This document shows, one piece after another, positions 208-2,874 of a stretch of 64,000 nucleotides of DNA (the stretch's first letter is position 1; each line of letters starts with the position of its first letter). Below the pieces are notes generated by a model, which did no database searches, had not been told where the DNA came from, and saw nothing but the letters and a program-made list of their open reading frames with translations. Made by a program: the position numbers and the translations under genes. Source of the DNA: Blastocatellia bacterium (GTDB lineage: Bacteria; Acidobacteriota; Blastocatellia; Chloracidobacteriales; Chloracidobacteriaceae); the NCBI GenBank assembly GCA_019695185.1, contig JAIBAN010000011.1, positions 1 through 64,000 of the forward strand. The letters run 5' to 3'.

Positions 208-2874
208 CTATCGGTATTTGGCGGCGGTAATAAGGTCGCTGGCTCGGCCCTTGGTGAGGGTGGCCACATCGAAGCTGGCCCCCATGGCTTTGAGCTTTTT
301 GATTTGCTGCTCGGTGGCGGGGTCCCGTCGCCAGCGGGCTCCGGGCTGGATGAGAGCGTCCGCCCCGGTGTCTTTGGCGATTTTGCGGCCCTCGGTTTCG
401 GCCACACCGAAGGCATAGGACTGGTCGAGTCCATCGCCCAGGATCCGGGGTGGCCCGTCGCCGGAGAGGAGCACGCGCCAGGTGTTAGTGTGGGTGCGTT
501 CGACCCGGATCACGGCTTTGCCCAGGGAGAGGATAAAGAGTCCGGCATGCGAGCGGACCCAGGCCAGTTTCTGCATGGCGTCCACGGGTTTGGTGGCTCC
601 CTGGTAAAGTTTGAGGTTGCCCTGGTCGAGCAGCCCTTGCAGTCGCTCTTTCTCGGCTTCCTTGGCCACCAGCGCCGCCGAGACGGATTTGCTTTTAAGT
701 TCGGCTTTGTGCAGGCCAAAGAGGTCGGCCACACTGCACAGCGAATGCTTGGCGGAAACCCCCACCACGTCGAGCACCAGACAGTTTGTTTTGCCGGGGT
801 AGGGCCGCAGTCCCCGGCCCACAATCTGGGTGTACATCGAGCGTGACTGGGTGGGGCGGGCCACCAAAACGCAGGAAATCGAGGGCTCGTCAAACCCTTC
901 GGTGGCAATCTGGCAGTTTGTCAAAAGTTGAATTTCATCATCGGCGTATTCCCGCAGGATTCGCCGCCGTTTGTCGTGATCCATCGCGCCGTCAATCGCC
1001 GCCGCCCGGATGCCCTCGCTTTGGGCATATTCGGCCAGTTCGTGAGCCAGGGCGACGGAGGGCAGGAAAGCGATTGTTTTCCGGTCCCGGCCATGCTGCC
1101 GCCAGCCCCGGAAAATCAGCGGGATGACATCGGCCTCGGCCATTTTGGCGGCGAGGTCGGTTTCACGGAAGTCGCCTTTGGCCCGTTTGACGGTATCCAG
1201 GTCGAGGTCCTTGCAATTGATTTGAAGGGTTACCACATCACAAAGCCCGTCGGGGCGAACGTGCGGCATGAAATCGGCAATCTGACGGGAGTAGACAATT
1301 TCCTCGAAGACCGAATCGAGGGCAACTCCGTCAGTGCGGTCCGGAGTGGCGGTGACTCCCAGGGTCAAAGGAGCCTGCGGTCCAAATGCGCCGAGGCCCG
1401 CCAGAATCGCCCGGTAGCTGTCGGCGGTGGCGTGGTGGGCCTCGTCAATCACAATGGTTTCAATGTTCCGAGCTTGCAGCGGGGCCAACCGGTCCGGACG
1501 GCAAATGGTTTGGACCGAGGCCACCACAATCTGGCGGTCCCATTCGTTGCGCTCGGCAGCAACGACGCCAATTTCGGCACTGGGCAACACCATTTTGATT
1601 TTGGCGGCAGCCTGCTGAATCAGTTCATCCCGATGGGCGAGAACCAGTGCCCGTCCGGCTTTCCGGGCGAGCAGGCAGGCGAACAGCACGGTATTGTGAG
1701 TAACGGTAAAATCACCCAATAAAAACAGATGATCACGGTCAATGGTAAAGCCGAAATACTCCCCCTCGCCGATTGGTTCAACTGAAATTCCCGTGACAAG
1801 AGGGTCCTTTTTCTGTTTTCGCACAGGAGCTTGCTTGCGCTTAATCCGAGTAGGGATAACCGAACAATCACCTGAAATGGAAACCCGGTAGTAATCCCCT
1901 GGGACTCCGGTATTAAAGCAGGTTTTTACACATGGGGTGAGATAGGCAGCCAAGCCAAGCGAACGGGCGAGGAAACAGACATCCTCAGCCAGTTGCCGGT
2001 CTTTTGAAATATAGTCAAACCCGGCACCGTACATGTGCCCATCGGTGTCAAGTATCCCGGCCAAAACCTGCAATCTGATTTCCCGTGAATTCCTTTTGAA
2101 CTCAACAGGAACGAATTTGCACCCACAGCGACCTGCTTTATAGGGGAGAAGTCCGTAATGTCTGAGTTTCTGTTTGAATGGATTTTTATTTGCACCTTTT
2201 CCGCTACTGAGGGAGTAACACGGTACCCGATGGAGGGATTCCTGTTTCACCAGGTTTAACCCTGATTCCTCGGCATATTCATGCAAAAATTGAATAACTT
2301 CAGCATCGGGCGTGCAGATGCCAACCGAATATCGGGTTCCGTCACCCAACCATAAGCCGAGCAAGTAAGGGTCAATCCCAACTGGTTGAGAGGGGAAGTC
2401 AACCCCTGTCCTCCATCCTTTGGCACAGTGCTTAAAGGTTTTACTGCGACGCATGTACTCTTCAATGTTCAAATTGATGATGGTGCCAGCGGTGTATTGT
2501 CCCCCTTGGCTGCCATTGCCTTTGGTGGCCCCTTTGGTCATTTTGAGCGAGAGGATATGGGCATCGTTGACAATATAAGGATCGCCCTTGGTCGGAGTGA
2601 CCTTATACAGGGGCCCCCATCCGGAGCATGTGGTTAAAACTGTGCGTGGTTGCGAGTCCGGTCCCATTAAAAGGTCACCAGGAGCAACATCCTGAACCGC
2701 CTTGATTGTTCCGTCGAACATCAAAACAGGGGTATTCCGACCCAGGCATTTGCCGGTGCCGGTGGGGAGCACCACCAGCACCCGCCGCCGCCCCCGTTTA
2801 TAGGCGGAAGCGACGGCATCAATTCCAGCCACCTGATAATCACGAGGGGTGATTTTTATTTCCGGTTTGTGCAT
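208..2874 (-). CDS. SF2 DEAD/DEAH-box helicase interrupted by an intein
   Basis: The 888-residue precursor is a superfamily 2 helicase of the RadD/type III restriction (ResIII) kind with an in-frame intein at residues 43-394. The host protein (536 residues after splicing) has an N-terminal Q-like segment (PRDYQ), Walker A split as PTGTGK/T, motif II DEAHH, motif III VTATP, and a C-terminal helicase domain with ATEGFDEP and a QIVGRGLRP motif VI. ATP-dependent unwinding or remodelling in replication or recombination of the element is likely. An AGGAGAG ribosome site overlaps the stop of the upstream gene, indicating co-transcription and coupling. Until the intein is spliced out the Walker A motif is disrupted, so ATPase activity should depend on splicing. 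Confidence 0.92.
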   Translation of the reverse strand: MHKPEIKITPRDYQVAGIDAVASAYKRGRRRVLVVLPTGTGKCLGRNTPVLMFDGTIKAVQDVAPGDLLMGPDSQPRTVLTTCSGWGPLYKVTPTKGDPYIVNDAHILSLKMTKGATKGNGSQGGQYTAGTIINLNIEEYMRRSKTFKHCAKGWRTGVDFPSQPVGIDPYLLGLWLGDGTRYSVGICTPDAEVIQFLHEYAEESGLNLVKQESLHRVPCYSLSSGKGANKNPFKQKLRHYGLLPYKAGRCGCKFVPVEFKRNSREIRLQVLAGILDTDGHMYGAGFDYISKDRQLAEDVCFLARSLGLAAYLTPCVKTCFNTGVPGDYYRVSISGDCSVIPTRIKRKQAPVRKQKKDPLVTGISVEPIGEGEYFGFTIDRDHLFLLGDFTVTHNTVLFACLLARKAGRALVLAHRDELIQQAAAKIKMVLPSAEIGVVAAERNEWDRQIVVASVQTICRPDRLAPLQARNIETIVIDEAHHATADSYRAILAGLGAFGPQAPLTLGVTATPDRTDGVALDSVFEEIVYSRQIADFMPHVRPDGLCDVVTLQINCKDLDLDTVKRAKGDFRETDLAAKMAEADVIPLIFRGWRQHGRDRKTIAFLPSVALAHELAEYAQSEGIRAAAIDGAMDHDKRRRILREYADDEIQLLTNCQIATEGFDEPSISCVLVARPTQSRSMYTQIVGRGLRPYPGKTNCLVLDVVGVSAKHSLCSVADLFGLHKAELKSKSVSAALVAKEAEKERLQGLLDQGNLKLYQGATKPVDAMQKLAWVRSHAGLFILSLGKAVIRVERTHTNTWRVLLSGDGPPRILGDGLDQSYAFGVAETEGRKIAKDTGADALIQPGARWRRDPATEQQIKKLKAMGASFDVATLTKGRASDLITAAKYR
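1693..2748 (-). other. Intein with LAGLIDADG homing endonuclease inside the helicase gene
   Basis: These 352 codons interrupt the Walker A lysine/threonine junction. The first residue is Cys43 (CLGRNTPVLM, block A), block B is NDAHILSL at 103-110, the dodecapeptide endonuclease motifs are LLGLWLGDG near 171-179 and LAGILDTDG near 271-279, and the C-terminal block is GDFTVTHN with the penultimate His and terminal Asn, followed by Thr395 as the +1 extein residue. All splicing residues and both endonuclease acidic residues are present, so splicing and homing activity are both plausible. The insertion point is the conserved P-loop, a frequent intein target in ATPases. Confidence 0.95.

Follow-up and report, generated by a model that had tools for sequence, protein, structure and literature searches.

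The helicase gene and its intein

The window analyzed here, which is the whole stretch of 64,000 nucleotides taken from a contig of a Blastocatellia bacterium (GenBank assembly GCA_019695185.1, contig JAIBAN010000011.1), carries near its start a helicase gene that is interrupted in frame by an intein. The parts of this gene are listed below (a slash in a motif marks a point of insertion).

208–2874, reverse strand: precursor of an SF2 (ResIII/DEAD-like) helicase with its intein; 888 aa, spliced product 536 aa
2749–2874, reverse strand: N-extein; 42 aa, ending in LPTGTGK, the Walker A motif through its invariant Lys
1693–2748, reverse strand: class 1 intein; 352 aa, Hint splicing domain and LAGLIDADG homing endonuclease
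2671–2748, reverse strand: splicing block A; intein residues 1–26, with Cys1; CLGRNTPVLMFDGTIKAVQDVAPGDL
2542–2571, reverse strand: splicing block B; intein residues 60–69, VNDAHILSLK, with Asn61 and His64
2338–2367, reverse strand: first LAGLIDADG motif; intein residues 128–137, YLLGLWLGDG, with the catalytic-type D136
2038–2064, reverse strand: second LAGLIDADG motif; intein residues 229–237, LAGILDTDG, with the catalytic-type D236
1693–1770, reverse strand: splicing blocks F and G; intein residues 327–352, with His351-Asn352; GEGEYFGFTIDRDHLFLLGDFTVTHN
208–1692, reverse strand: C-extein; starts at Thr+1 (TVLFACLLARKAG...) and holds the helicase motifs DEAH, TATP, and QIVGRGLRP

The reading frame of 888 residues (208–2874, reverse strand) contains no internal stop codon. 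The intein makes up residues 43–394 of the precursor, and its junctions read LPTGTGK/CLGRNTP...GDFTVTHN/TVLFA, which places the insertion between the Lys and the Thr of the Walker A motif (PTGTGK/T) of an SF2 helicase of the ResIII type. The position 1693–2748 and the split of PTGTGK from T that had been given in the first-pass annotation of this DNA are exact to the base. The extein is matched by the Pfam domains ResIII (83.9 bits) and Helicase_C (53.3 bits) and, as a joined sequence of 536 aa, by the phage protein family PHROG 16 "DNA helicase" (E 3.4e-77), and its nearest solved structure by sequence is RadD. All three of the C-extein motifs named above are present by reading, and the extein looks functional. 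The two parts of the gene differ in base composition, the intein having a GC content of 49% (GC3 51%) as against 61% (GC3 72%) for the extein.

Conservation and predicted fold of the intein

The features by which class 1 inteins are recognized occur together in this insert, viz. Cys1, N61-x-x-H64, a terminal H351-N352 followed by Thr as the +1 residue, an in-frame position, and the existence of homologues that lack the insert. A LAGLIDADG endonuclease is likewise indicated by two motifs that each end in an acidic residue of the catalytic type (D136 and D236), and a catalytic-type lysine, K211, is also intact. Across 32 aligned, non-identical members of the intein family, the residues Cys1, Asn61, His64, His351, and Asn352 are invariant (32/32), and D136 and D236 are each conserved in 30 of the 32. 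Block B of the intein reads VNDAH, with Asn at the place where many inteins carry Thr. Judged from the alignment, this Asn is the family's own form and no inactivating change, because Asn61 and His64 are invariant in all 32 non-identical members; inactivating changes in block B, which would have told against the first-pass annotation, were thus not found.

Pfam searches with the intein gave a score of 51.3 bits for Hom_end_hint (cut-off 32.1) and a score barely above the cut-off for LAGLIDADG_3 (22.8 vs. 22.5). The profile of the intein family matches the yeast intein PI-SceI (E 3.6e-47), and their alignment places D136, D236, and K211 on D218, D326, and K301, which are the catalytic residues of PI-SceI; YLLGLWLGDG is paired with YLLGLWIGDG (D218), and LAGILDTDG with LAGLIDSDG (D326). 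PI-SceI also has an Asn-x-x-His arrangement (N76, H79), in a stretch that lies outside the profile alignment obtained here. An AlphaFold2 model of the intein (pLDDT 93.9, pTM 0.92) aligns along its full length with PI-SceI structures, 336 residues being paired (Z 33.0, rmsd 3.0), and its similarity to archaeal VMA and PI-PfuI inteins is well below this (Z 20.6 to 24.0). The same predicted model aligns with PRP8 inteins at Z 22, which supports a Hint fold. A chance resemblance to inteins is excluded by the profile match to PI-SceI together with the alignment of the predicted model. The earlier proposal of an intact LAGLIDADG intein in the Walker A motif is hence borne out by sequence, profile, and predicted fold, and the residues on which it was based (Cys1, the His-Asn terminus, the +1 Thr, and both acidic endonuclease motifs) are all in place.

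The probable carrier element

The neighborhood of the helicase gene contains the following features.

2887–4083, reverse strand: upstream neighbor of the helicase gene, phage family phrog_23155 (E 3.6e-34)
4490–4708, reverse strand: HTH_17 excisionase-like protein
7263–8207, forward strand: CI/LexA-like repressor with an S24 peptidase domain
10213–11322, reverse strand: tyrosine integrase
11508–11553, forward strand: probable attachment-site scar, by reading the 3' part of a tRNA from the anticodon loop TTCATAA to CCA

The genes for the helicase, the phrog_23155 protein, and the excisionase-like HTH protein form a leftward block, with the repressor and the integrase to its right. Integrase, repressor, and excisionase-type genes, the combination that identifies integrative elements, are found together here, and the carrier is likely an integrated phage-like element. 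The location on a mobile element that had been noted at first pass is accordingly likely, with the tRNA-like 3' fragment lying past the integrase. At 11508–11600, next to the integrase, the DNA resembles the 3' portion of a tRNA-Met(CAT) gene, after which comes a strong hairpin. Neither ARAGORN nor Rfam called a tRNA in the fragment at 11508–11553, and Rfam matches at 11536–11642, which lie far under their gathering scores, were set aside as a chance hairpin. No second copy of the presumed attachment core was found in the assembly, where the window copy is unique; the sequence at the contig end is common to no other contig; and among the same-family relatives compared, none has the tRNA-like core within three mismatches, and no empty site was observed. 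The start of the contig falls within the element, whose far end lies off the contig, and a clear terminase turned up on a different contig only. Just outside the element, a gene for a TPR-CHAT protein (12958–16206, reverse strand) adjoins one for a protein of the SUKH (SMI1/KNR4) family (12263–12928, reverse strand).

Relatives in phages and comparison with known inteins

A tblastn search with the intein matched 670 phage records, 440 of which cover at least 80% of the query in one place. Eight phages from the best 40 of these 670 records were fetched and their junctions read, the remaining records being counted by tblastn only. In seven of the eight the insert lies at GK/T, and in Listonella phage phiHSIC it lies at G/CGK. 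The insert of Salmonella phage vB_SenS-Ent1, which occupies the same site, is annotated as a LAGLIDADG intein, and that of Escherichia phage Bas95 as "similar to intein". The helicase inteins of Salmonella Jerseyviruses (vB_SenS-Ent1 gp34, CCG55216) and of Klebsiella (JD001), Vibrio, and Pseudomonas phages belong to the same lineage as the window intein, to which they are 44–51% identical across all 352 residues; they occupy the same Walker A K/T site and are also of the LAGLIDADG type. Their exteins are only distantly similar to that of the window, and the extein of Ent1 is of the SNF2 type. No relative of more than 57% identity to the window intein was found in the phage records, viral contigs, and genomes searched. 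The PI-SceI-like (Hom_end_hint) lineage is common in tailed phages, and the window intein is a further phage-type helicase intein of a known family; it differs from inteins of the Ent1 type in its location, which is an integrated element in a bacterial genome rather than a phage.

The insertion that follows the invariant Lys and precedes the Thr is the "classic" P-loop insertion of a published survey, according to which about 70% of inteins sit in ATP-binding proteins (PMC5050341). PI-SceI (the yeast VMA1 intein), although it is the best match of the window intein among solved structures and agrees with it at the positions of D218, D326, and K301, is 454 aa in length, about 100 aa longer than the phage-type intein of the window, and it is located at VMA-a, outside the P-loop (PMC8966425). 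The archaeal VMA-b and RadA inteins share with the window intein a site in an ATPase P-loop (PMC8966425, PMC5790916); the VMA-b inteins resemble the window model less closely in fold (Z 20.6–24.0), and the RadA mini-inteins lack the endonuclease that the window intein has (PMC5790916). The TerL1-a inteins of mycobacteriophages differ in their host protein, which is a terminase and not a helicase.

Other inteins were noticed in the course of these analyses. The genome of the window contains a second intein, in the alpha subunit of a ribonucleotide reductase (L149; G000:C95, about 77072), at a site that is not a P-loop. A third (L007 / L184; G000:C17:23516-24223) reads INEGWA/C...HN/S with LAGLIDADG-type motifs and lies in a SpoVR-family protein, which is not a P-loop protein. 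At L116:3623-7456, an ORF with a P-loop intein of the present lineage shows, further on, a second Intein_splicing match and an HNH_3 endonuclease domain.

Intein-free homologues and movement between hosts

The intein-free alleles that the first-pass annotation proposed to look for were found as homologues of the helicase; an empty allele from the same species was not. Two of these homologues (45 and 42% identity) come from genomes of the same order, one (38%) comes from a genome of the same class, and others come from plasmids and phages of other phyla. In nine intein-free homologues aligned over the site, the Walker A motif is unbroken. When viral contigs were scanned for related loci with the 536-aa extein as query, no relatives were returned, probably due to poorly conserved peptide patterns. 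A tree of 63 exteins places the window helicase as sister to the two intein-free helicases of its order (SH-aLRT 93); either the lineage of the window gained the intein or its intein-free sisters lost it.

Movement was assessed by comparing tree distances of inteins and exteins between pairs of SF2 hosts. Steady-rate vertical inheritance would hold the ratio of these distances level. The observed ratio of intein to extein distance has medians of 2.5 and 1.8 in the two bins of the closest hosts (3 and 6 pairs), and it is 0.57 for the most distant hosts (792 pairs), a downward trend to which extein saturation and poor alignment may contribute. Close and distant pairs were compared in this way because the finding that inteins are more alike than exteins could reflect rates, and it was set aside as a sign of transfer by itself. 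The sister inteins L070 and L032 (support 100/98) reside in helicases that fall into two distinct clades, both well supported. Movement of the inteins of this lineage between distant hosts is well supported by these trees, and the window copy has itself likely moved between hosts. As the nearest relative of the window intein, L068, has a helicase host of the same subfamily, the window copy may also be an old inheritance, with losses in L034 and L035. A quick tree had indicated L069 as the neighbor of the window intein; a constraint test found that tree not to be the best, the careful tree gives L068 instead, and the extein data reject a clade of L001 and L069. L023 and L069 are sister exteins (SH-aLRT 100) with inteins of this lineage at different P-loop positions, G/SGK and GK/T.

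These observations bear upon a competing explanation in which the intein is splicing-competent and its endonuclease retains the fold and catalytic residues in an inactive state, so that the intein is now immobile and is inherited with the helicase. The marginal LAGLIDADG_3 score and the shared helicase subfamily of the L068 host are consistent with such an intein, but D136, D236, and K211 are intact, the endonuclease domain is modeled at high confidence, and the distance between the window and L068 is smaller for the inteins (1.22) than for the exteins (2.13), though between close hosts inteins outpace exteins. On balance, we regard an immobile intein as rather unlikely.

P-loop positions occupied by the lineage

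Copies of the intein lineage were gathered by searching viral contigs and genomes with the intein alone (one scan being confined to its best 80 matches) and from the fetched phages, and at least 99 non-identical full-length copies were obtained, which represent a sample of the nearer relatives. Among the 99 copies listed, 94 occupy one of two P-loop positions, viz. GK/T or GK/S (75 copies) and G/xGK, two residues upstream (19 copies); several of the other five are still near the P-loop. BLAST comparisons divide the hosts of the listed copies into 19 sets, several without a named host domain. Pfam domains of representative hosts include those of SF2 helicases, SNF2, XPD-like, Terminase_3, DnaB, RecA, and UvrD proteins, as well as AAA, AAA_5, ABC transporter, and T4SS coupling (TraG/VirD4) proteins. 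On an intein tree of 90 rows, in which bootstrap values had yet to stabilize and support is weak at many deep branches, the host changes 28 times (minimum 16), or 16 times (minimum 6) when hosts are merged into seven broad classes, and the position changes only 5 times as against a mean of 16.5 after shuffling. Even when only the well-supported branches of the tree are counted, the SF2 class requires 7 changes.

The DNA that unrelated GK/T hosts have in common scarcely extends beyond GG-AAR-AC, the third positions being free except for A/G in the Lys codon. In the genome of the window, 13 sites, the occupied site included, lie within three mismatches of a reconstructed 21-base target; a reversed control gave 2. 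It is a tenable, though tentative, reading that this lineage consists of P-loop specialists, whose endonuclease would read little beyond the codons of GK[TS] or G[ST]GK, tolerate wobble positions, and allow the intein to jump between unrelated ATPase genes. A short wobble-tolerant target would explain the P-loop pattern; many independent gains, with inteins kept only where splicing is essential, would explain it as well.

Splicing, homing, and the question of regulation

The explanation that we consider very probable is that the helicase of this integrated phage-like element carries, at GK/T, a class 1 PI-SceI-like (Hom_end_hint) intein that is competent for splicing and probably still for homing. 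After translation, attack by Cys1, transfer to Thr+1, and cyclization of Asn352 would lead the Hint domain to excise itself, and the excision would join PTGTGK to T and restore the Walker A motif. The LAGLIDADG domain would be expected to cut the P-loop codons of intein-free genes (about GGN AAR ACN and flanking bases), and repair of the cut allele would copy the intein in. The analysis itself establishes how the gene is built, that its active-site residues are intact, which fold is predicted, that homologues without the insert exist, and that the history of the intein departs from that of its hosts; we infer splicing, DNA cleavage, homing, and a requirement of splicing for ATPase activity. 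The last of these can soundly be expected from the sequence, because 352 residues separate the Lys of the P-loop from its Thr in the precursor, which should not bind ATP normally.

The separation of these two Walker A residues in the precursor also lends itself to a proposal that the intein is regulatory, such that conditional splicing (in response to redox state, DNA damage, or single-stranded DNA) gates the helicase and serves the element as a switch. Conditional splicing has been published for a RadA P-loop intein (PMC5790916) and likewise for the DnaB inteins of mycobacteria (PMC6195587); the presence of the lineage in many ATPases could also mean retention where it is useful. However, the lineage also occupies unrelated ATPases, the nearest helicases manage without an intein, and the endonuclease is intact, as for a mobile element, whereas the RadA switch inteins are without one (PMC5790916), and we consider a regulatory intein improbable. 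The intein can be accounted for without any regulatory role: its intact endonuclease, the unrelated ATPase hosts of its lineage, and its intein-free sisters may be explained without the control point that the first-pass annotation suggested, with which they would still be compatible. The spread over unrelated ATPases suggests a target preference and not a control specific to helicases. It is scarcely credible that the insert is some Hint domain other than an intein, bacterial intein-like or otherwise, able to cleave but not to ligate and leaving a dead helicase, since, although hedgehog, bacterial intein-like, and other Hint domains have the same splicing-domain fold, the insert has the canonical C1...HN/T form with a LAGLIDADG domain within, it lies precisely between K and T, and a complete set of helicase motifs flanks it in one frame.

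Significance of the P-loop pattern

The clustering of inteins in P-loops is a long-standing question, in which selective retention or regulation is set against target specificity. The preference itself has already been published, and its spread within one lineage is less familiar; no statement that a single intein lineage extends across unrelated P-loop proteins was found in the open-access literature, which is weak evidence of novelty. The intein described here is, as a single case, an ordinary member of its family, and the interesting part is the occupancy by its lineage of many unrelated ATP-binding loops. The sequence comparisons suggest a mobile parasite specialized on P-loop codons in preference to a device for the control of helicases. 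If the lineage does consist of P-loop specialists, then helicases, terminases, DnaB, RecA, AAA proteins, ABC proteins, and conjugation coupling proteins would all be its targets, and not one protein family. A lineage that keeps its position in the P-loop while swapping its host protein makes the question of clustering directly testable.
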